Source: an uncultured Pelagibacteraceae bacterium
GTDB lineage: Bacteria; Pseudomonadota; Alphaproteobacteria; Pelagibacterales; Pelagibacteraceae
Direction of reading: 5' to 3'
Assembly (NCBI GenBank): GCA_902557775.1
Contig: CACEBD010000002.1
Span: 74,144 to 138,143, forward strand
Length of the DNA stretch: 64,000 nt
The stretch's first letter is position 1; each line of letters begins with the position of its first letter. A program made the position numbers and the translations under genes. Positions 49,011 through 62,834 of this stretch are shown piece by piece. The notes beneath the pieces are model-generated. The model was not told where the DNA came from. It did not search any database and worked only from the letters and a program-made list of their open reading frames with translations.

Positions 49011-49038
49011 TGTGGTGTCTATGTGGTGTCCGAGATTA
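49011..49038 (+). repeat. 28-bp direct repeat, left copy
   Basis: Identical to 49701-49728. It begins TGTGGTGTCTATGTGGTGTC and continues CGAGATTA. Internally it contains TGTGGTGTC twice with 11-base spacing. The last three bases form the stop codon of the secreted protein gene at 49036-49677. Confidence 0.9.
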
Positions 49039-49677
49039 TTTATAAATAGCGTGCAACCAATCATTTACACCATCTGTTTTAATTGTAACGCCGACGTTAG
49101 TAACATAATCTTTTCTTACTTTACCTTTATAAAATAAACAAAGTGCCTCCACTTCTAAATATTTAGACTTTGGTGTTAGTTGAATAGCACTTCTAAAATA
49201 CTTGCTCTTTCCATACTTGTCTGTTGGTGGCACGCCCTCATCACTCTGTATCAAAGGATTGTTAAAAACAGCTTTTATATCATTAAAGATTTTATCTTTT
49301 TGTTTTTTGCAATCTTGAACATTTTTAATATTTTTTCTTTTTTCATTTGTAATTGCTCCAGCTACAGCTTCTATCACATAGTTTTTATCATTTTTTTTGT
49401 AAGTTATTTCTACAGCCTCAAACACTGCGAAATCAAAATCTGCAACATTTATATAATTTCCAGTTTTTTTTGTATAAATAGTTGTCACTTCATATTTTTG
49501 ATTAGGAGAGTTTATAGGGTTATTTTTAGTTCCGTTTTTAATTAATGACTCGGGAAAAAAATCTAAAGCACTATCACCAATACTCATTCCTTCAATCTGT
49601 AAGTCTCTAATATCATCTGCTTGAGATAGGTTTATTAAAAATAAGCTTAGAATAATTATAGCTAAAAATTTTTTCAT
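49036..49677 (-). CDS. secreted protein, paralogue A of an undescribed family
   Basis: No function is recognised. The 213-residue product has a signal peptide (hydrophobic 4-18, cleavage likely after SQA at 20) and then DDIRDLQIEGMSIGDSALDFF, the family hallmark shared with four other proteins in this window. Further shared traits are a central YVIEAVAG segment, a cysteine near the middle followed by a Lys-rich helix, KYGKSKY (TGKSxY in the others) and a second cysteine in a late strand. It is the longest of the five, with an insert after the hallmark. It is the only gene in the tRNA-Thr element and lies precisely between the two 28-bp repeats. Confidence 0.8.
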   Translation of the reverse strand: MKKFLAIIILSLFLINLSQADDIRDLQIEGMSIGDSALDFFPESLIKNGTKNNPINSPNQKYEVTTIYTKKTGNYINVADFDFAVFEAVEITYKKNDKNYVIEAVAGAITNEKRKNIKNVQDCKKQKDKIFNDIKAVFNNPLIQSDEGVPPTDKYGKSKYFRSAIQLTPKSKYLEVEALCLFYKGKVRKDYVTNVGVTIKTDGVNDWLHAIYK

Positions 49678-50785: not shown

Positions 50786-50811
50786 TATCTCCTAGTCTGT
50801 TCACTAGTTTG
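50786..50811 (+). repeat. island-internal end repeat, left copy
   Basis: TATCTCCTAGTC, five bases, ACTAGTTTG. The same framework occurs at 62858-62882 near the other island end. It overlaps the stop codon of the adjacent secreted-protein gene. It is imperfect and short, so chance or gene-family homology remains possible. Confidence 0.4.
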
Positions 50812-51388
50812 CTTCTTCATTCCTCCATTTTAAAAAATAATTTGGTGAAATTGCTACAGAAAGATTGTCATTAAAATTCCGTTTCTTTTCTGTAACTTTT
50901 GACCAATTCACACACCAAACTCTAAGTGAGGAACCGTCTTTCAAATCGAAATCACTTACATAGGCTATACTTTTAAGATCGTCAATTTTATATTTAAAAT
51001 CATATTCATTAAACTTTAATTTTTTATAATTAGATCTAATAGAGTCAACAATTTTCTTTTTTTTAAGCAAACAATCATTAAAATTTTTTTTATAAAATAT
51101 GCCACCTGATAAGGAATGTATTATATATTGATTATCATTTTTTTTAAGATGAAATGATAAAACTTCGTATTCTTTTTGATTTTTGATTTTGATGCCATCT
51201 AGCAAATAATATTTATCACTTTTAGGATAGTAAGTTTTCTTCGCATTTTTAATCTCTTTCTTGTCATAATAGTTTAATAAACTATCTCCAATACTTATCC
51301 CTTCAATTTGAAAGTCCTTGATATCATCAGCCTGGGATAGGACTGTGGAGCATAAACTTAAAACTATTATCAAAGAAATTTTTTTCAT
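50804..51388 (-). CDS. secreted protein, paralogue B
   Basis: A 194-residue member of the same unnamed family: signal peptide (start MKKISLIIVL, cleavage after SQA), then DDIKDFQIEGISIGDSLLNYY. YIIHSLSGG in the centre and cysteines in NDCLLKKKK and VWCVNW match the family. TGKS is not conserved here (DLKSIAYVS). I chose the ATG at 51388 because it begins the signal peptide; in-frame starts up to 51409 exist. It is the last gene of the nine-gene minus-strand run, 30 bases after paralogue C. Confidence 0.78.
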   Translation of the reverse strand: MKKISLIIVLSLCSTVLSQADDIKDFQIEGISIGDSLLNYYDKKEIKNAKKTYYPKSDKYYLLDGIKIKNQKEYEVLSFHLKKNDNQYIIHSLSGGIFYKKNFNDCLLKKKKIVDSIRSNYKKLKFNEYDFKYKIDDLKSIAYVSDFDLKDGSSLRVWCVNWSKVTEKKRNFNDNLSVAISPNYFLKWRNEEAN

Positions 51389-51418
51389 TAATAATCTTAA
51401 CATATACATCTAGTTTGG

Positions 51419-52012
51419 TTAGTTTAACCATCTATCGACTTTTGTCGAACGTATAGTCATGTACAAATGATCTGCTTTATTTTTAATATGGTCACTCCAG
51501 TCATAACATGAAATAGCTACATGGTAGTTATCCGCTAATGAAAAATATATGTCAGTATAACTAGACTTACCTGTTGGGTCTGCATTTTTAAAAATTGTTT
51601 TTACGGGTCCAATTTGCTTAGACTTTTTAAACATTGATTTAATTTCATCTGCAATAATAATTTGTTTTTTATAACAATTATTTATATCTTTTATTTCTTT
51701 ATCATTTCCGAAATACATAACGCCAGCTATAGTAACAATTTTATAACTTTCATCCCCATACTTCGTAAATATATCAACAAAATCATATTGTTTAAATTTA
51801 TCGCTTTCTAAAGCGAGTGCTGTAAATTTATTCTTTTCTAATCTATCATACCAATTAACAATACTTGTCGTAATTTTTTTTTTTGTAAAATGATCTAATA
51901 AACTATCACCAATACTCATTCCCTCTATTTCGAAATCTCTAATATCATTAGCGATAGATTTTTCAATGTTGATAGTGAGGAGAAAAGCAAATATTAAAAA
52001 CTTTTTAATCAT
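51419..52012 (-). CDS. secreted protein, paralogue C
   Basis: A 197-residue exported protein: signal peptide to about residue 21 (EKSIA), then NDIRDFEIEGMSIGDSLLDHF. Family features: YKIVTIAGVMYF, a cysteine in INNCYKKQ, ADPTGKSSYTDI and the late ISCYDWS cysteine. It follows the Sel1-repeat gene after six bases and precedes paralogue B; B and C probably arose by duplication but have diverged widely. Function unknown. Confidence 0.8.
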   Translation of the reverse strand: MIKKFLIFAFLLTINIEKSIANDIRDFEIEGMSIGDSLLDHFTKKKITTSIVNWYDRLEKNKFTALALESDKFKQYDFVDIFTKYGDESYKIVTIAGVMYFGNDKEIKDINNCYKKQIIIADEIKSMFKKSKQIGPVKTIFKNADPTGKSSYTDIYFSLADNYHVAISCYDWSDHIKNKADHLYMTIRSTKVDRWLN

Positions 52013-52798: not shown

Positions 52799-53383
52799 TT
52801 ATTTTCCTCTATTATTTACGATAAATTCCATAAATTGATGAGTATTAACAGATACCTTTAAATTTGCTCTCAATTTACTTTCTTTTGTAAAATCATAACA
52901 ATTTATATTTATCGATTCAAGACTGGGGTAAGGCTTGAGATAATTCTGTATACCATAAATCATTGATTTTCCTGTCTTATCATAAGAACTAGGAAATTTA
53001 GTTTCTTCACTTTCATTTATTTTAAATTCCTTTTTTATATAAGACTGAATTTCTTTTTTTATTGAATTGCATTCCTCTAAATTTTCATAATAATAAATTC
53101 CTGAAATACCTACTATTATATATTTTCTATCATCCTTTTTAACGCTAACATTTAATTTATCATATTGTTTAAGATTGTGTATTTTCTCAAACCTATATGT
53201 AACAAATTTATCAGTTTTGTAATTAAAATTGGCATTTATAGATTGAATTTCTTCTTCAGTTGCATAATCTAAAAGACTTTCACCAATTATAATACCCTCG
53301 ATTTCAAAATCTTTTAAATTATCAGCTATTGAATGCCTAACGGTAATCAATAATAGAATTAATATTAAAAAAAGTTTTTTCAT
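52799..53383 (-). CDS. secreted protein, paralogue D
   Basis: A 194-residue family member: signal peptide to RHSIA (about 20), then DNLKDFEIEGIIIGESLLDYA, where Glu replaces the usual Asp of IGDS. Retains YIIVGISGIYYY, cysteines in LEECNSIKK and NINCYDF, and DKTGKSMIYG. Encoded between prsW-like and the small membrane protein genes, three bases from the former. Confidence 0.8.
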   Translation of the reverse strand: MKKLFLILILLLITVRHSIADNLKDFEIEGIIIGESLLDYATEEEIQSINANFNYKTDKFVTYRFEKIHNLKQYDKLNVSVKKDDRKYIIVGISGIYYYENLEECNSIKKEIQSYIKKEFKINESEETKFPSSYDKTGKSMIYGIQNYLKPYPSLESININCYDFTKESKLRANLKVSVNTHQFMEFIVNNRGK

Positions 53384-53386
53384 AAA

Positions 53387-54232
53387 TTAAAAAAGTATAG
53401 CTGACATAACTATTAAAGTTACTAAAATAGCAGCTGATACATATGAATATAAAACTTCGATATTTTGTACTCGAGCTTTATCTATTGATTCAGTAATTTT
53501 TTTTAACTGCTCTCTTCTATAATAGTAAATAAGACTAATCATAAAAATGACGGATAAAAGAGGAAAAATACTTGCCGCTCCATAGTAATTATACGCGCCG
53601 TGAAAAACTATTGGCAAAGATAAAGATAGAATTAACATTATCCTTCTTTTAAAAATATTTCTCTCTTCAAATAAATTTAAACTCAGTAACCACCCCATTA
53701 AAACTCCAAAACCCATATGCATAACAAGTGGATAATATCTTGTTTTAACCATTTCTATTGTCCATGCATTTTCTAGACTTGAGCTAGATAAATAGCCTAC
53801 ATTTTCTATTGCTGCATAACCAAGACCTATAGCGGCACCATAAACAATTGCATCCATTGGTTCATTTAAAGCTGATAATCTGACACAAAAGAATATAAGT
53901 AACGCAAATTTTATTCCCTCTTCCAGGAAAGCTGCTCGAAAAAAGCTTTGAAAAGCATTTTCTGCTACAGGAAAAGTAGCTCCTGCTACTTTATAACCGC
54001 CATCAATATATTCATTGTAAGCGTTTATATCTAAACCTAATAAAGGGCCTAAGTGATCCTCAGCAAGCATTATGAATAGTTGCAATGGCAAAACTATAGA
54101 TGCGCCTAATAAAAATGAAGAAAATAAAAATTTACCTGGTTCAGGAAATCTATCTGATTTCCAAACTGCAATTCCTAGCAATATAGGTGGTAGTACTGTT
54201 GAAATATAAAGAAAGGAAGGATCGGTAAACAT
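53387..54232 (-). CDS. PrsW-family intramembrane protease
   Basis: A 281-residue polytopic membrane protein. All PrsW-type motifs are visible: the EEGIK motif (Glu104, Glu105, Lys108), DAIVYGAAIGLGYAAIENVGY (Asp127, Glu143, Asn144), MHMGFGVLMG (His172) and FHGAYN (His211, Asn215). Bacillus PrsW performs site-1 cleavage of an anti-sigma factor. No sigma/anti-sigma pair is encoded nearby, so the target is unknown; the single-span or signal-bearing proteins of the same operon are candidate substrates. It overlaps the vWA-like gene by one base. Confidence 0.88.
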   Translation of the reverse strand: MFTDPSFLYISTVLPPILLGIAVWKSDRFPEPGKFLFSSFLLGASIVLPLQLFIMLAEDHLGPLLGLDINAYNEYIDGGYKVAGATFPVAENAFQSFFRAAFLEEGIKFALLIFFCVRLSALNEPMDAIVYGAAIGLGYAAIENVGYLSSSSLENAWTIEMVKTRYYPLVMHMGFGVLMGWLLSLNLFEERNIFKRRIMLILSLSLPIVFHGAYNYYGAASIFPLLSVIFMISLIYYYRREQLKKITESIDKARVQNIEVLYSYVSAAILVTLIVMSAILF

Positions 54233-55146
54233 TATTGAATATCTAGTTGTTTAATCACCTCATAATTATCAACACCGATGTAATTGAATAAATCTTCCCA
54301 GAGTTTTACTAGTGAACTTGATAGACCATCTCTAGTTTCATAATCATGATTAATATATAAAATTGTTACTTTTAAATTTTTTAAGGTTTGTTTATTTGGT
54401 TTTCTATCATCTATATAATTCTTTACTTTTTTATTTTTTATTAAACTTGCAAATGATTTACATTTATTTGGTTTTAAAATTTCTAAACTAGTTTTGCAGT
54501 GGTTATAAAATGAAAATCTTTTAGAAAATTGCATTAAATCTGAAACAATAATTAATTCTCTCTCTGGATAGTCAGGAGTAAAATCTACTTTTGCTTCTCT
54601 TAAAACATGAAAGAAATATTCAAATATTAAACTTTGTTTTCCTTCGGGAGCGTTTACACTTAAGAAATTTTTTTCAAATTTATTAGTCAATTCATTCCAA
54701 ACAAAAAATGCTTCTTTTATTCTCTTGTATCCTTCACACTTTGTATTTGCTTCTTCACCTTCAAATTTAGATTTATCGCCAGTTTTAAATCTACATTTTG
54801 AGTAATTAATAGTTTGTGATTGAGGCGGAGTATCGTCAATTTTCATGTAAGAAATCTTATGATAAGGAGGGGTGTTTTTTATTAAAACGTCTCCAAAAAT
54901 TCTTCCTTGAATCCAATCAACTTGGGCTTGTTTTAAGGGAGATGTAAAATCGACTAAAAAAAACTTGTGACCTAGTTTTGAATTTAAAGGACAAAATTGG
55001 TTAGGATCTTCAAAATCAATTATAATAGGATTCTTGCTATCCTGCCAACATTTAGGGTAACCTTTGGGAAGTTCCGCAAAAGACTTAACAGAAATTGATA
55101 ATAAAAGAATTATAAAAATAGATAATTTAACAGTATTAAATTTCAT
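54232..55146 (-). CDS. exported protein with a von Willebrand factor A-like fold (putative)
   Basis: A 304-residue protein with a signal peptide (about 1-24). FFLVDFTSPLKQAQVDWI at 62-79 resembles the first strand and metal-site loop of vWA domains (D66, T68, S69), and ELIIVSDLMQFSKRFSFY at 197-214 resembles the later strand with Asp203. VTILYINH (260-267) could be a further strand. Several cysteines may form disulfides. The classification rests on pattern recognition and is tentative. It overlaps the downstream PrsW gene and the upstream coiled-coil membrane gene, so these three are translationally linked. Confidence 0.6.
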   Translation of the reverse strand: MKFNTVKLSIFIILLLSISVKSFAELPKGYPKCWQDSKNPIIIDFEDPNQFCPLNSKLGHKFFLVDFTSPLKQAQVDWIQGRIFGDVLIKNTPPYHKISYMKIDDTPPQSQTINYSKCRFKTGDKSKFEGEEANTKCEGYKRIKEAFFVWNELTNKFEKNFLSVNAPEGKQSLIFEYFFHVLREAKVDFTPDYPERELIIVSDLMQFSKRFSFYNHCKTSLEILKPNKCKSFASLIKNKKVKNYIDDRKPNKQTLKNLKVTILYINHDYETRDGLSSSLVKLWEDLFNYIGVDNYEVIKQLDIQ

Positions 55147-56635
55147 ATTTCTTTCTTATATCTTCAATCTTTGAATTAATTTCACTTTCATAAGTGTTAA
55201 TTAAATTAATATGATCATTAGCAGCAGATTGTATTTTATTTTGATAACTTTCTATTTTTTTTTCAATTTCATCTTTGCTTAAATATAAAACTGCAACGTC
55301 AGAAAATACTTCTTTAGGATCACTTTTTCTTGGACTTAAATTATAATAACGAGTTTTCATTTTACCATTAGCATCTTTCCAATATTTTGGTACGTCATCT
55401 GTTCTGAAGTTTGCATTGATGGATCTATATTCGCCTAAAGCGTGGTCTATAGAGTCATCAATTTCATTAGCGAATCTTTTATAGCTTGAAAATGTGTTCT
55501 CTAAAGATGTTATATTCGGTCTCCACTGTGCTCCTAATATGTTTGATAAAATTTTGTCTCTTTTTTCGCCGGTATTTTTTATCTCATCTTTAAATATTTT
55601 TTGAACTTCTGTGGCTAAATGTTCTCTTATTCTATTAATTTCTTTTTTATCCTCATTTCTTGTTTTACCAATATTTCCAAATTCAGGGTATGTGTCTCCA
55701 AAAAAGTATCCATCAATTAAAGATGCTATCGCAAATCCAATTCCTAAAAAAATTAATACCATTGAAATAAAATTTAGTTCAACAGTCCAAGGTAAAAGTT
55801 CATTTGCTGTTTGGGCTGCTTGATCTACACTTGAAGTAGTTCCTCTCATCTTATCAAGCTGTGATACACCACCTGTATCGTGAATTGCTCTATATGCTCC
55901 TAAAATCCAATTTAAATAAAATATAAAAACTAGGTAAACGGTTAATCCTATTTTACCTATTACTCTTCTACTTTGCTTAATATGATTAAAGTTTTTTAAT
56001 GCAAAGAAACCAATTCCAAAAGAGACCAAAACATTGAGAGCGGCTACAGTAATAGAAACAGCTAAACCTGCTTTATCACCACCACCAAACGCTGGACCAA
56101 GAATTCTTCCGTTTGCTTGATACTCAATAAGAAATAAAATTAAGATTACTGAAAGACCAATTATTATATTCAATGTTGTTAACGACTTTGGCTCTCTATT
56201 TAATTTATTTTCCAATTTAAAATTTCTCACTTCTCTATCATGAGTATTGTATGAGTCTTTTAAACTAGATAATCTTCCCTCAGCACTTACTAATGTCTGT
56301 TGTATCCTCCCTTTAAAATCTTCAATATAAAAGTTTTTTTGTCCAAGCTTGGCAGTGCTATCGATAATTTTGTCTTTAATTGAATTTAAATAAGAGGCGG
56401 CTTTTGAAACTTGATCATTTCTTATTTCATCTGCGTATACAATTGCTTCATTTTCACAGATAGAAAAATTTTCAGAATTTGACCTTGGAATATTGTTTTT
56501 GCCATCTGTAGTGGCATTTTCTTTTAGACTTATTTTATCTTCTAAAGCTTTAACTTTTATATTTTCAAAATCGTAGCTCATATTATTTTTTTTAAAAATT
56601 CTCTTAATTTTATTTATTAGTTTTTTTAATTTCAT
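55136..56635 (-). CDS. four-helix membrane protein with coiled-coil flanks
   Basis: A 499-residue protein of unknown family. Residues 20-150 are soluble and helical with coiled-coil character; four membrane helices lie at about 153-172, 189-213, 227-247 and 284-308; the C-terminal 180 residues are again charged and helical. The loop between helices 1 and 2 contains GPAFGGGDKAG. The start may be at 56635 or at the internal Met19 (56581). Its topology suggests a scaffold or anchor for the vWA-like and PrsW-like proteins encoded in overlap, but nothing shows an enzymatic activity. Confidence 0.7.
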   Translation of the reverse strand: MKLKKLINKIKRIFKKNNMSYDFENIKVKALEDKISLKENATTDGKNNIPRSNSENFSICENEAIVYADEIRNDQVSKAASYLNSIKDKIIDSTAKLGQKNFYIEDFKGRIQQTLVSAEGRLSSLKDSYNTHDREVRNFKLENKLNREPKSLTTLNIIIGLSVILILFLIEYQANGRILGPAFGGGDKAGLAVSITVAALNVLVSFGIGFFALKNFNHIKQSRRVIGKIGLTVYLVFIFYLNWILGAYRAIHDTGGVSQLDKMRGTTSSVDQAAQTANELLPWTVELNFISMVLIFLGIGFAIASLIDGYFFGDTYPEFGNIGKTRNEDKKEINRIREHLATEVQKIFKDEIKNTGEKRDKILSNILGAQWRPNITSLENTFSSYKRFANEIDDSIDHALGEYRSINANFRTDDVPKYWKDANGKMKTRYYNLSPRKSDPKEVFSDVAVLYLSKDEIEKKIESYQNKIQSAANDHINLINTYESEINSKIEDIRKKYEI

Positions 56636-56709: not shown

Positions 56710-56922
56710 CTAGTCACCGTCCTTTCCTGCGCTCATTAATGCAGCTCCAATAAATCCAAAGATCATTGGAGAAAATCTCGAAGCAGCACCCATAAAGCTA
56801 GTAAGGTTAACTCCAGCCCAAGACATTGCAAAGTCTGCTATTGCGAAGGCTATTAACAAGAAGCCTAATACCTGCAAACCTGATGTAGAACTAGTCTCAT
56901 TTTGTACTTTTGCTTTTTTCAT
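56710..56922 (-). CDS. 70-residue hydrophobic membrane peptide
   Basis: A short polar N-terminus (MKKAKVQNETSSTSG) is followed by two hydrophobic stretches (about 17-34 and 40-64) rich in Ala, Gly, Phe and Met, and an acidic end (GKDGD). It resembles small oligomer-forming membrane proteins in composition only; I do not recognise the family. A good AAAGGAAAAA Shine-Dalgarno region precedes the ATG. First gene of the minus-strand run, separated from the rest by a stem-loop. Confidence 0.65.
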   Translation of the reverse strand: MKKAKVQNETSSTSGLQVLGFLLIAFAIADFAMSWAGVNLTSFMGAASRFSPMIFGFIGAALMSAGKDGD

Positions 56923-57559: not shown

Positions 57560-58975
57560 ATGTTAAAAAATTGTAAAAAACTTAGCATACTGATTTTATC
57601 AAGTATTTTTCTATTTTCATCAGTTGAGGCTAACTGGATTACTAAAAAAAGTAACAAATCTAAAGAGATAATTAAGGAAGAAAAAAAACAAAAGTCTGAA
57701 TGGATTAAACTTAAAAAAAAAGAAATCAAAGCAAATCAAAAAGAATTTAAAGAAAATAAAAAGAATATCTCTGATGAAACTAAGACATGGATTACAAAAA
57801 AATCTAAGAAAGATACCTACATACAATCCATAGAAGAGATTCCATACAATAAAGATCGAATATATTTAATTGCTAATAGTTTAAGTACAGGAAAAGTTAT
57901 TTATGGTTATTTAAATTGGAATGACGATAAATTTAAAACGGGTCTAGATATGGCAAACATCAAAGGTAAAAGTTATATAAATGATGGTAAAACTATATGT
58001 AATATTGGAATTGACATAAATTTTAGAAATAAAATGATTGGAACTTTAAACGGAGATTGTACTAACAAAACACAGTACAACGCTGTTTTAGAATTTGCGG
58101 AAAAGCAATCAGCTGGGCTAATGGTATCCTCAACTGGTGAAAGGTTTGTTTTTGATTTGGTGAGTGTAAAAAATGATGCAATAAAAAAATTTGCCTCGCT
58201 TAAAAATAATGACACTTTAATCAACCAGCCCATTAGATCTAAATTGAACGTAAGCCCAAAAGGTAATTACTATGCTTTACTCATTGGAAATAGTGATTAC
58301 AAAAAATGGAGTTCTTTATCCTCTCCAATAAACGACGTAAAAGAAATTGGAAAAATTCTTAAAACTAAATATAATTTCAAAAGCGTTACTACACTTGAAA
58401 ATGCCAATCGTGCTGAAATTTTTCAATCTTTGAAGAAACTGAAGTCTTCTGTAACCGACGAAGACTATGTTTTAATTTATTATGGCGGACATGGAGATCA
58501 GGAAACGCAAAGAGCTTATTGGATACCTGTTGATGCTGGAAAGGAGTGGGATGAAAATTGGATTGACACAATCACAATCACTACTGCTGTTCAGAGAATA
58601 AAAGCGAAACATATATTGGTAATGATTGACTCTTGTTATTTAGGAACAAGCTTTAAAGGAAAACAAAATATTAATGTATCTGAGGCTGATATAAGTGCTA
58701 AAGAGGCTATTAAAAGTTTAAATAATAGAGCGGGATTAGTAATGGCTTCAGGGGGCGCTACTCCTGTAGTAGATGCAAATATAGACAATAAACATTCATT
58801 GTTTGCTTATAAGTTTATAGACATTTTAAAAAAAAATTCAGATTTCATAACTTCACAAAATATCTATTCACAAATAAAAAAATACCACGCAAATGAAAGA
58901 CAAACTCCTCAATTTTATGGAGTAGCTAATTGGGGTCATTTAGAGGGAGATTTTGTGTTTAAAGTAAAAAAATAA
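57560..58975 (+). CDS. exported caspase-like cysteine protease (peptidase C14, orthocaspase type)
   Basis: A 471-residue protein with a signal peptide (1-24), a Lys-rich region with coiled-coil character (26-100), a small beta domain (about 100-225) and a p20-like caspase domain (about 234-468). The catalytic dyad is intact: His311 in YYGGHGD and Cys359 in IDSCYLG. ALLIGNSDYKKWSSL and INDVKEIGKIL open the domain as in bacterial caspase homologues. Metacaspases cleave after Lys/Arg, and the linker is full of Lys, compatible with self-processing. The motif WITKKSxK occurs at 26-33 and 77-84 and again as WITRKDNK in the next protein. The stop overlaps the start of the HtrA-like gene (TAATG). Confidence 0.88.
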   Translation: MLKNCKKLSILILSSIFLFSSVEANWITKKSNKSKEIIKEEKKQKSEWIKLKKKEIKANQKEFKENKKNISDETKTWITKKSKKDTYIQSIEEIPYNKDRIYLIANSLSTGKVIYGYLNWNDDKFKTGLDMANIKGKSYINDGKTICNIGIDINFRNKMIGTLNGDCTNKTQYNAVLEFAEKQSAGLMVSSTGERFVFDLVSVKNDAIKKFASLKNNDTLINQPIRSKLNVSPKGNYYALLIGNSDYKKWSSLSSPINDVKEIGKILKTKYNFKSVTTLENANRAEIFQSLKKLKSSVTDEDYVLIYYGGHGDQETQRAYWIPVDAGKEWDENWIDTITITTAVQRIKAKHILVMIDSCYLGTSFKGKQNINVSEADISAKEAIKSLNNRAGLVMASGGATPVVDANIDNKHSLFAYKFIDILKKNSDFITSQNIYSQIKKYHANERQTPQFYGVANWGHLEGDFVFKVKK

Positions 58976-60252
58976 TGAAAAAAATATTTTTTTTTCTAAT
59001 CATCAATCTATTAATGTTGCCAGCTTATTCGGAGATTAATAGTAAATTAATTTTAGAGTCAAAAGTAAAAGGGAAAGAGTCTATTATAATTGCAGTTACT
59101 CCTCTCACCAGTAAAAAACAAATTAAGGAATTAAAAGTAAATGTAGAGTCTAATAGAAATTTCTTAAATGTTATAAGGCCAAAATTAATCAGCAAAAATA
59201 AAAATAGACCTCCTAGAACTAAATTCAAAGGACCGGCTGAGGAAATTTTTAAAGATTATGCGAAAAGTGTTGTTTTTATAGGAAACTATAAAAAAAATGG
59301 CTCAGGTTCTGGATTCGTTATTAATCATAAAGGAAAAAAAATAATTACAAATTGGCATGTTATTGAAGGCTCAAAAAAAGTAAGGGTGTGGTTAAAACCT
59401 AAAAATTTAGTGAATGAAAGATACATGTTAGATAATTTAGACTCGTATGAAGCAAGAGTAATAAAGATAGATAAAGAGAAGGACTTAGCTTTATTAGAAA
59501 TCGTTGATATGCCAGATGATATTAAACCTGTACAATTTGGTGATTTTGAAAAGGTAAATGTTGGTGAAACAGCTTTTGCTATTGGCCATCCAGGAGATTT
59601 AATTTGGACTTTCAGTAATGGGATGGTGAGCCAATTAAGACAAGATTATAAATGGAAATATAAAAATTCTCATCACTTTGCAGATGTAATACAAATCCAG
59701 GTTCCGATAAATCCTGGAAACTCAGGTGGCCCTTTATTTAATAAAAATAAAAAATTAATTGGAGTAAATACTTTTACTGCTGATGGCGAAAATTTAAATT
59801 TTGCTGTATCAGTAAATGATATGATTGAGTTTTTAAATAAGCCTGAAAAAAAAATAAAAGATAATAAATATATTCAAAAGAGAAAAAAGAGTCCTACCTG
59901 GATCACTAGAAAAGATAATAAAACTAAAAACAATAATATAGATAAAAAGTATCCTAATGCTCAAAAAGGAGATATGAATGAAAACGGATCTACCGATATA
60001 TGGTTTTTAGATGAAAATAAAAATGGAAAAATAGACACTGCAGTTATAGATGCGAATGAAGATGGTATTATTGAAACAGTTGCGTTCGATGAAAATGAAA
60101 ATGAAAACTTTGAAATATTTCTTTTTGATGATGACTTAGATGGCAATGCCGACAGAGCGGAAATTGATGAAGATGATAACGGTTCTTCAGATATTATGGC
60201 ATTCGATACTGATCAAGATGGTAAATGGGATAAATATGAAAAAATATCTTAA
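58975..60252 (+). CDS. exported HtrA-like serine protease with calcium-binding-like repeats
   Basis: A 425-residue protein with a signal peptide (about 1-19) and a trypsin-fold domain (about 88-288) with the triad His128 (NWHV), Asp170 (KEKDLALLEI) and Ser250 (GNSGGP). No PDZ domain follows. After a basic linker, residues 333-419 hold seven tandem 13-residue repeats starting at 333, 346, 359, 372, 385, 398 and 411, each of the form D-x-[DN]-x-[DN]-G-x-x-[DE], like calcium-binding EF-loop or thrombospondin-3 repeats. Translational coupling to the caspase-like gene suggests the two proteases act together; calcium dependence is inference. Confidence 0.9.
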   Translation: MKKIFFFLIINLLMLPAYSEINSKLILESKVKGKESIIIAVTPLTSKKQIKELKVNVESNRNFLNVIRPKLISKNKNRPPRTKFKGPAEEIFKDYAKSVVFIGNYKKNGSGSGFVINHKGKKIITNWHVIEGSKKVRVWLKPKNLVNERYMLDNLDSYEARVIKIDKEKDLALLEIVDMPDDIKPVQFGDFEKVNVGETAFAIGHPGDLIWTFSNGMVSQLRQDYKWKYKNSHHFADVIQIQVPINPGNSGGPLFNKNKKLIGVNTFTADGENLNFAVSVNDMIEFLNKPEKKIKDNKYIQKRKKSPTWITRKDNKTKNNNIDKKYPNAQKGDMNENGSTDIWFLDENKNGKIDTAVIDANEDGIIETVAFDENENENFEIFLFDDDLDGNADRAEIDEDDNGSSDIMAFDTDQDGKWDKYEKIS

Positions 60253-60253
60253 A

Positions 60254-60733
60254 CTATCTTTGCTGCTTACTTTTGCTATCTATTGTAAGTTTAATTTTTA
60301 GAATTTTATTCTCTAAATCTTTTATAGCTTCAAAAATATCTTTTTTTTCTAAAGCCGATATCTCAACACCCTTCTCACCTTTGGGATCCTTGGCCTCTTT
60401 AACTAGTTCCGTGAGTTTTCCATGTAATATTGTAGATTTAACCAGCATTTCATTTATATCTTTATTCTCAAAGTTATCAGCTTTATCCAACAATTGAACA
60501 ATCATATATTCGTAAGCTGTTAACAAAGGTGGTGCTTTACCCTTTTTAATACAAGCTTGGTCAAGTTTAAATGAGTCGTTATGATCTATTTCTTGAGCTA
60601 AATCAGGATTACTGCATTTTCTTATATAAGAAGAAGTTTTACCTATCGCCTCATTGATTTCATCATCAGATAATATTTTTAAAACCTCCATTAAACCACT
60701 CTCTATAGAGGCATTTTTTCTTATTTTTGCCAT
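60254..60733 (-). CDS. helix-turn-helix-like regulatory protein (putative, phage-type)
   Basis: A 159-residue cytoplasmic protein, the only soluble non-exported product in the island. ILSDDEINEAIGKTSSYIRKCSNPD looks like a helix-turn-helix of the kind in phage CII-like regulators (core EINEAIGKTSSYIRKCS), followed by IDHNDSFKLDQACIKKGKAPPLL, a pattern shared by prophage-borne proteins of alphaproteobacteria. The C-terminal half is a charged coiled-coil. It is convergent with the HtrA-like gene and divergent from the ion-channel gene, and could regulate either divergent region. Confidence 0.55.
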   Translation of the reverse strand: MAKIRKNASIESGLMEVLKILSDDEINEAIGKTSSYIRKCSNPDLAQEIDHNDSFKLDQACIKKGKAPPLLTAYEYMIVQLLDKADNFENKDINEMLVKSTILHGKLTELVKEAKDPKGEKGVEISALEKKDIFEAIKDLENKILKIKLTIDSKSKQQR

Positions 60734-60777
60734 TTCAAATATTATGATTATAATAAATCAAACTCAACTTATTGTTT

Positions 60778-62241
60778 ATGAATTTTACTAAATATAAATA
60801 TATAATTTTGCTTTTTTTAAGCACTATATTTTCAAATATTTTTCAAGCCAATGCTAGTATAGAGTTAGAATTTAATAATCGTATACTTCAAAGTAATATA
60901 ATTAAATCTTACCCATTCCAAGAAACAAGGTATGATATAGGTTTGTTTTATGATTTTTCTTGGGATCATAATAAAAAGCAAATAATTATCAAGAGAGATA
61001 AAGAAAACTATCCAGTGATAAGGTTCTCTTTGTTCGATAAAAAAAATTTTCCTCAAGGTATTTCAGTGCAAAAATATAATGATTTAGATTTATCTAAGGT
61101 TTCTGACAAAATAATTAATGAATTAAATAAAAAAAAGGAGAAAGCTAAAATTACTTTAAATAATAATAAAGTAATTAATCTTAAACCCCGCATCTATGAC
61201 TTCAATGATGTAAAGCTTTCAAGTTTTAATTTAGATTACATAAATAATATAGACACTAATAAAGGTTTGCTTGAAATATCATTTAGTGCTGATTTTACAA
61301 ATAAAAGACCAGAATTAAATAAATTTGCTAAAGATTTACTTAAAGATGATTTTTACCAAGCTATGAATGAGAACGCGCCTTATCCTATTCAAGAAGTTGA
61401 AATTAAAGAGTATAAATATGATGTTGATATTAGAAAAGGCGTAAATACTCCAGATGTCGCTAATAGATCTCAAATTGATTTTACTTACGACAATGGGGAA
61501 GTAAGAACTGTGCGTCAGGAGTCTGGTATAGGTCAGTTTAGACAAACGTTCGACTTTAAAAATTTTCCTTTTGACAAACAAATACTAAAAATTAAAATTG
61601 CCTCTGGAGCTAGAAGCACTGCAAATATTAATGAGGCTTGGCCAAAAACTGGAAAAGCCGCCGTTCATTTTATAACACCAGCTGAAGGAGCTTTTTTAGG
61701 ATTAGAAAATTATTTAACTAATGTATCAGAGAATTACTTAAAAGAATGGACAGTAAAAAACATTAATATAGAAAGCGATGAAATAATAGTTGAAAATTTT
61801 TATAACAAATATTTAGATAAGACTCATTCTTATAATGAAAATTCAATCGACTTAATATTAAATATTGAAAGAAATTCAGCTCATTATATTTATAAAATTA
61901 TAATACCTATCTTTTTAATTCTAAGTATAGCTTGGTACGTATTATGGATTCCCACTGAAAAACTTGACGCAAGGTTAAACACCTCTATTGTGGCTCTTTT
62001 GGCTTTAATAGCTTATAATTTTGTTTTTTTAGATGACATACCAAAATTAAATTACCTTACAGCTTTAGATAAATATATTTTACTATCTTACATTTGGTGC
62101 TGTATTCCAATATTTATGAGTATTGGATTTAGTAAATTTATAGTCAAGAATCAGAGAAAAGTTGTTGTAATAAATAAAAAATTAAGATCGTGGCTGGGAA
62201 TTATTTACTTCTTGTTTACAATTCAGATATTTAATTTTTAA
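60778..62241 (+). CDS. prokaryotic pentameric ligand-gated ion channel
   Basis: A 487-residue protein (ATG at 60778; an upstream TTG is possible). Signal peptide to about 26, an extra N-terminal domain to about 205, then the ligand-binding beta-sandwich with the loop FRQTFDFKNFPFDKQILKI, whose FPFDxQ core marks the family. Four membrane helices follow: M1 with a central Pro (KIIIPIFLILSIAWYVLW), M2 after RLNTSIVALLALIAYNF, M3 (YILLSYIWCCIPIF) and M4 (WLGIIYFLFTIQIF). The two Cys of the eukaryotic Cys-loop are absent, as in GLIC and ELIC. An N-terminal extra domain is known from DeCLIC. Ligand and ion selectivity unknown. Confidence 0.85.
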   Translation: MNFTKYKYIILLFLSTIFSNIFQANASIELEFNNRILQSNIIKSYPFQETRYDIGLFYDFSWDHNKKQIIIKRDKENYPVIRFSLFDKKNFPQGISVQKYNDLDLSKVSDKIINELNKKKEKAKITLNNNKVINLKPRIYDFNDVKLSSFNLDYINNIDTNKGLLEISFSADFTNKRPELNKFAKDLLKDDFYQAMNENAPYPIQEVEIKEYKYDVDIRKGVNTPDVANRSQIDFTYDNGEVRTVRQESGIGQFRQTFDFKNFPFDKQILKIKIASGARSTANINEAWPKTGKAAVHFITPAEGAFLGLENYLTNVSENYLKEWTVKNINIESDEIIVENFYNKYLDKTHSYNENSIDLILNIERNSAHYIYKIIIPIFLILSIAWYVLWIPTEKLDARLNTSIVALLALIAYNFVFLDDIPKLNYLTALDKYILLSYIWCCIPIFMSIGFSKFIVKNQRKVVVINKKLRSWLGIIYFLFTIQIFNF

Positions 62242-62258
62242 TACATAGATTTTTCTCA

Positions 62259-62834
62259 TTATTTATAATGTACATTATCTAAAAAATCTCTAAATTCATT
62301 TAATCCAAGAGTAACTGAAAAACGATCATATTTTCCTTCAGCTTCTAATTTTTTACTCATGTCAAAACAAATTATTTCTGCATAACCATTTGAAAAATGA
62401 TAAGAAATTCTCTCATAAGTACTTTTACCAGTTTTATCCATTGGGTGCTTACCTTTATCAATTATACTTTTTGATGATGATATCTTTTTAAAATCATTTG
62501 ATACATTTTCCATTTTCATTTTGCATTCTTTAAAATTATCAATCCATGTAATGCCATCTAAGTTATAAATTTTATAATTTGGATCGTTATTTTTTACTGT
62601 CACTTGAACACCATCGTAGGGTTTAAACTTAGTAGTATTAAAAAAATAATATTTAAAAGTTTTATTTTTATAAAAGAACTCTTCGTCTGAATTTTTTAGC
62701 TCATTTTTTGTAAAATATTTAAGAGCACTATCGCCAAGACTAATAACATCTAATTGAAATTCTTTGACGTCATCAGCATATGAATGAACAAATGTGCATA
62801 AAATTATAATCAGTATCTTTAGAAGTTTTTTCAT
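62259..62834 (-). CDS. secreted protein, paralogue E
   Basis: A 191-residue family member: signal peptide to VHSYA (about 20), then DDVKEFQLDVISLGDSALKYF, the most diverged hallmark of the five. It keeps YKIYNLDGITW, a cysteine in FKECKMKM, MDKTGKSTYERI and the late EIICFDMS cysteine. It stands alone at the right end of the island, convergent with the ion-channel gene, just inside the tRNA-Leu remnant. Confidence 0.8.
   Translation of the reverse strand: MKKLLKILIIILCTFVHSYADDVKEFQLDVISLGDSALKYFTKNELKNSDEEFFYKNKTFKYYFFNTTKFKPYDGVQVTVKNNDPNYKIYNLDGITWIDNFKECKMKMENVSNDFKKISSSKSIIDKGKHPMDKTGKSTYERISYHFSNGYAEIICFDMSKKLEAEGKYDRFSVTLGLNEFRDFLDNVHYK

Follow-up and report, generated by a model that had tools for sequence, protein, structure and literature searches.

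A pentameric ligand-gated ion channel with a putative PDZ-type domain and its conserved gene company in Pelagibacterales

Bacteria of the SAR11 group are among the most abundant in the ocean. The PDZ domains of HtrA/DegS and RseP recognize misfolded or cleaved envelope proteins by their carboxy-termini, and, to our knowledge, the physiological roles of bacterial pentameric ligand-gated ion channels (pLGICs) are largely unknown. Channels of this type in Pelagibacter were mentioned in 2016 (accessible part of PMC4795631), and their presence alone is not the surprise that the original prediction for the locus described here had taken it to be. By 2025, the extra N-terminal domain of the channel DeCLIC was the only one characterized, as jelly rolls, according to the accessible parts of two sources (PMC9897478; PMC12664993); the second of these states that "little is known" about the extra N-terminal domains of bacterial pLGICs. 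In a census of microbial PDZ proteins, the word "channel" is absent from the main text (PMC6411480). Among open-licence papers, we found nothing relevant that links PrsW-family proteases with ligand-gated ion channels and none on PrsW in SAR11.

In this work, we analyzed a stretch of 64,000 nucleotides (hereafter the window) from an uncultured Pelagibacteraceae genome (957 kb in 23 contigs; 82% complete). The gene of interest (60778..62241, + strand) encodes a 487-aa pLGIC subunit, in which a signal peptide, a PDZ-like domain, a ligand domain, and four transmembrane (TM) segments follow each other. Its reading frame is open from ATG 60778 (or TTG 60772) to the stop codon at 62239-62241, and no comparable frame was found on the opposite strand. 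All parts lie on the + strand. The putative signal peptide (60778..60855, residues 1-26) has a cleavage site set by eye and a hydrophobic start that is common to the orthologs. It is followed by the extra N-terminal domain (60856..61212, residues 27-145), the ligand-binding domain (61213..61872, residues 146-365), and the pore domain with M1-M4 (61873..62238, residues 366-487).

By homology, the window protein is a pLGIC, and assembly into a pentamer with a gated pore is predicted. The proposed kinship with GLIC, ELIC, and DeCLIC was confirmed: the NCBIfam model LGIC_1 matches residues 146-462 with an E-value of 9e-24 (84 bits; cut-off 500), and matches in the PDB were obtained for ELIC (E 1e-13) and DeCLIC (E 3e-13). 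The Pfam model Neur_chan_memb gives 24.8 bits (E 3e-5; cut-off 28.1), and the relatives L016 (29.3 bits) and L018 (34.8 bits) exceed this cut-off. The landmarks named in the original prediction were also recovered, namely the Pro-loop FPFDKQ (61564-61581, residues 263-268), the M1 proline (Pro377), and four hydrophobic C-terminal segments, judged to be TM segments from sequence. Both Pro377 and the pre-M1 Arg365 are invariant in alignments of 13 and of 35 rows. The cysteine pair of animal Cys-loop receptors is missing, and the only cysteines, Cys441 and Cys442, are in the TM part. The position of Asp397 ahead of the M2 residue Arg399 suggests a cation pore. The nearest two named proteins, both from uncultured Pelagibacteraceae, are 92% and 86-87% identical to the window channel, and an AlphaFold monomer computed from three sequences (the protein and two relatives) had a pLDDT of 31. 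We consider it highly probable that the protein is a Pro-loop pLGIC subunit with a periplasmic PDZ-type domain that follows the signal peptide and precedes the ligand domain.

Because the LGIC_1 match starts at residue 146, the extra part has about 119 mature residues; with the signal peptide, about 145 residues precede the ligand domain, fewer than the approximately 180 first proposed. In an alignment of 35 long family members, only Gly55, apart from the start, is nearly invariant ahead of the ligand domain. This glycine sits at the place of the PDZ carboxylate-binding loop, within a PDZ-like core of about residues 52-140, and many of the 35 members carry after it a motif of the "GD.I..ING" type, which we take to be a PDZ signature. 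A profile of 17 N-terminal domains (NTDs) matched best, among all PDB chains, the tandem PDZ domains of an RseP-like protease (E 3e-8), followed by Do/DegQ proteases, GRIP1, and PSD-95. The Pfam PDZ model was matched by 13 of the 35 members at E-values up to 1 (best 7e-6), with one member, L066, above the cut-off (26.7 bits). It was matched by none of 30 control pLGICs, which were chosen as judged PDZ-free and of which 12 matched a periplasmic-binding-protein model (Peripla_BP). We also built an HMM from the NTDs of 20 divergent members, with the subgroup of the window excluded, and searched it against 701 neighbouring ORFs. Besides pLGICs, this HMM matched a DegQ-like protease at each of its two PDZ repeats (E 9e-10; repeats confirmed by Pfam), and its hits to the window's subgroup were weak (best E 4e-6; E 0.018 for the window's own domain).

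When taken by itself, the window copy gives weak scores. No Pfam PDZ match was found for its NTD, its GD and ING signatures are worn, and a nine-member profile of its subgroup retrieved from the PDB a single chain at E 0.89, itself a PDZ. AlphaFold modelling of residues 27-145 alone reached a pLDDT of 40 and a pTM of 0.36, and Foldseek with this low-confidence model returned no match at E <0.001. The weak sequence scores would also fit a small beta domain of another kind, for which the profile of the family would be misleading. We consider this quite unlikely, given that the window's subgroup was joined by hhalign to the divergent NTDs with a probability of 97 (E 6e-11, for a single comparison) and that the controls were negative. 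The extra domains are best read as a divergent PDZ family, in which the window copy is a degenerate member linked only through its relatives. Of the 35 members, 28 combine a cysteine in the ligand domain with one at the beginning of the extra domain, two have the ligand-domain cysteine only, and five have neither. The window channel lacks both. This pattern suggests a disulphide tie between the extra domain and the ligand domain that was lost in the branch of the window.

The occurrence of pLGICs is patchy, with at least 45 positive genomes among 397 of the order; this is a lower bound, as the search scored the best three first-look candidates per genome. In a sample of the class, 10 of 385 genomes have a pLGIC, the window's genome included. 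G672 and G749, which belong to another family, have a PDZ-pLGIC with an HTH gene directly before it, and the pLGIC locus of G654 is cut by a contig end. In the other six genomes, the NTD model detects no PDZ-type domain, and the stretches fetched contain neither partner (PrsW or the HTH protein, see below). Among 19 fetched loci of a phylum sample, this model found no PDZ-type NTD, and it misses the PDZ of L134/L135 that Pfam finds. Scans of viral contigs with the channel protein and with the alignment yielded no relative, and no match to the channel was found in phage and plasmid records. When the PDZ label is placed on a tree of 58 pLGICs, three changes suffice, and none of 500 shuffles needed as few; the count is approximate, since L134/L135 and L021 escape the model behind the label. 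The PDZ-bearing branches fall in a single group of 47 rows (support 94/93; the program stars 95). Its other members are a PDZ-free second-subunit class (10 rows, of which six lie next to a gene with PDZ), the G672/G749 pair, and two long proteins of G048. The window's genus also has another pLGIC lineage that lacks PDZ and is far from the others in the tree (L024 7481-8530, genome G029).

Comparison with the three closest orthologs gave whole-gene dN/dS values of 0.15, 0.11, and 0.15, which indicate that the channel gene is maintained under purifying selection. Values for the extra domain were 0.16-0.19, and the ligand domain was the most constrained part (0.06 against the two closest orthologs). 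A patchy presence could also reflect a decaying gene without function. This is very improbable in view of the purifying selection seen, and internal stops were absent in all 12 matches of the homolog search.

For the gene company, we compared 43 neighbourhoods, namely 42 loci and the window; G303, G237, G208, G148, G072, G401, G348, and the second G408 piece are omitted, and L014 stands for G205. In the window, the channel gene does lie beside proteases, as the original prediction had it. One is an exported HtrA-type trypsin (58975..60252, + strand; Pfam Trypsin_2 E 5e-28; degP_htrA_DO E 4e-39, below cut-off) in which PDZ was not detected. Its C-terminus has, in place of PDZ domains, acidic DxDxDG-like repeats that resemble calcium-binding loops. 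The other is an exported caspase-fold (C14) protein (57560..58975, + strand; Pfam E 9e-23), whose cluster is found in 10 of the 43 pLGIC loci. A CII-like helix-turn-helix (HTH) protein of 159 aa (60254..60733, - strand) is encoded divergently to the channel, and the start codons of the two genes are separated by 44 bp; the HTH family was identified through divergent members that match phrog_101 CII-like (best E 5e-8). A PrsW-family intramembrane protease (53387..54232, - strand) is encoded approximately 6.5 kb from the channel on the other strand, with PF13367 above cut-off (E 2e-25) and the conserved Glu and His positions aligned. The same strand encodes an exported 304-aa protein (54232..55146; no Pfam match; cluster in six of the 43 loci), a 499-aa membrane protein (55136..56635; no confident family), and a small membrane protein (56710..56922; cluster in 12 of the 43 loci).

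The window also contains five copies of a family of exported paralogs (49036-49677, 50804-51409, 51419-52012, 52799-53383, and 62259-62834), which start with a "DDIxDFxIEGMSIGDSLLD"-like segment. Their cluster numbers 37 copies across 10 of the pLGIC loci, and no Pfam match was found for the one member tested. A promoter scan gave its best match (11/12) at 60727-60754, ahead of the channel gene. We dropped this site as evidence, as 35 sites were found and 37.9 were found in shuffles.

Two of these neighbours, neither of which the original prediction had picked up, recur across the order: a PrsW-family protease is present in 28 of the 43 pLGIC loci and a CII-like HTH protein of approximately 155 residues in 25. 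Independent searches, each of 397 Pelagibacterales genomes, found the HTH protein in 43 and PrsW in 47. In genomes that also hold a pLGIC, PrsW is within 10 kb of a pLGIC at 26 of 27 places (approximately 0.02 expected for each) and the HTH gene at 22 of 25; two of the 57 pLGIC rows (G299 and G384) were left out of this distance analysis as second pieces of genes already counted. Co-occurrence with pLGICs is strong for both PrsW (Fisher p 3e-16) and the HTH protein (p 1e-13), values that overstate independence because the genomes are related. At nine pLGIC loci, the HTH and PrsW genes abut, with 81 bp between the matched parts, and the channel gene is usually next.

Both partners are also found with no pLGIC near, at 22 of 48 places for PrsW and 23 of 45 for HTH (the other 22 being near a pLGIC). 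The idea that such solo loci hide a missed pLGIC was rejected, as none was found in 39 of them (20 of the 22 PrsW loci and 19 of the 23 HTH loci as separate loci; three more HTH loci are inside PrsW loci, and one fragment was omitted). PrsW and the HTH protein therefore also work elsewhere. Beside PrsW without a pLGIC (L085-L104), a DUF2167-type protein, its family named from one member, was observed in 10 of 20 loci. Near the HTH gene without a pLGIC, an 850-aa Castor/Pollux-type ion channel, also named from one member, was observed in five of 19 loci (e.g., L119 3235-5787). Near pLGIC genes, a TerB protein and two coiled-coil membrane proteins were observed in five loci (e.g., L061 5082-5582), and a flavin amine oxidase in seven (L062, L063, L065, L067, L068, L069, and L071). 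PDZ-bearing and PDZ-free subunits are encoded together in six of these seven amine-oxidase loci, and mixed pentamers are possible.

Based on these patterns, our working model, which we hold at a little under even confidence, is an envelope sensor channel with a PDZ cap that binds the C-termini of periplasmic proteins and that is wired to PrsW and the CII-like regulator. The gene product would be one subunit of a cation channel in the inner membrane. Its PDZ cap may recognize exposed carboxy-termini, either on envelope proteins that are misfolded or cleaved or on fragments released by the neighbouring proteases. Binding of a C-terminus would shift the ligand domain and open or prime the pore, such that envelope damage would be converted into an ion signal; PrsW and the CII-like HTH protein would turn this signal into proteolysis and gene control. 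The sensing step itself is somewhat more tentative. The original idea of a sensor on the envelope is supported as an interpretation. The data establish pLGIC homology, the PDZ-type profile of the NTD family, the gene company, and purifying selection; the ligand, gating, cation selectivity, the substrate and coupling of PrsW, and the role of the HTH protein are inferred.

An ordinary pLGIC gated by a small molecule, such as a receptor for amines or similar compounds, in which the PDZ domain anchors or clusters the channel and has no part in gating, is a possible but distinctly less probable explanation. It would fit the strong constraint on the ligand domain and the amine oxidase (Pfam Amino_oxidase E 3e-45) found with pLGIC genes in seven of the 43 loci, and primary amines open ELIC (accessible part of PMC3119659). 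However, all seven of those loci carry the PDZ-less subunit class, the enzyme was not found in the window stretch examined, and PrsW and the HTH protein are left unexplained. The caspase and the trypsin, both with PADLOC matches (E 3e-12 and E 8e-22, respectively), together with the patchy distribution, could instead point to an anti-phage or cell-death device, in which a signal would pass through the two proteases and the channel would act as the killing pore. Known defence systems of this kind are cytoplasmic, whereas both proteases here start with signal-peptide-like sequences. Moreover, PADLOC gave no match at E 0.1 for the channel, the HTH protein, or PrsW, and no relative was found in phage and plasmid records, which makes this device rather unlikely.

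Returning to the envelope sensor, a PDZ-pLGIC found with PrsW and an HTH protein hints at an unrecognized way of sensing cell-envelope trouble, and the PDZ cap with its conserved company of protease and regulator leads to a concrete, testable hypothesis on the stimulus of the channel and on the route by which its signal is passed on. Among channels of the neurotransmitter-receptor family, it may even be the first that is gated by protein carboxy-termini, and with PrsW and the CII-like HTH protein, it may form an unrecognized SAR11 envelope signalling system, in which peptide recognition would open the channel and be turned into gene control via intramembrane proteolysis; this broader claim is doubtful at present.

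The closest known systems each share a part of this arrangement. HtrA/DegS and RseP have the same type of PDZ profile and a periplasmic setting, but their output is proteolysis, and here it would be a channel. The window PrsW belongs to the same family (PF13367) as PrsW of Bacillus subtilis. Bacterial pLGICs with a fused PBP-I, Cache, or MCP-N domain likewise have a sensor domain before the ligand domain; those fusions bind small molecules, and the accessible part of the source names no PDZ fusion (PMC549065). ELIC and GLIC share the Pro-loop ligand domain and the four TM segments, but both lack an extra domain. DeCLIC (6v4a, with 9ftg), also a prokaryotic pLGIC, likewise has an additional N-terminal domain in the periplasm, and of all PDB entries it gives the best match to the family profile (E approximately 1e-28), a match that covers the ligand domain and the TM part only. 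The comparison with DeCLIC that was first suggested holds for these two parts and not for the extra domain, which consists of two jelly-roll lobes in DeCLIC (accessible part of PMC9897478) and is shorter and PDZ-like in the window.
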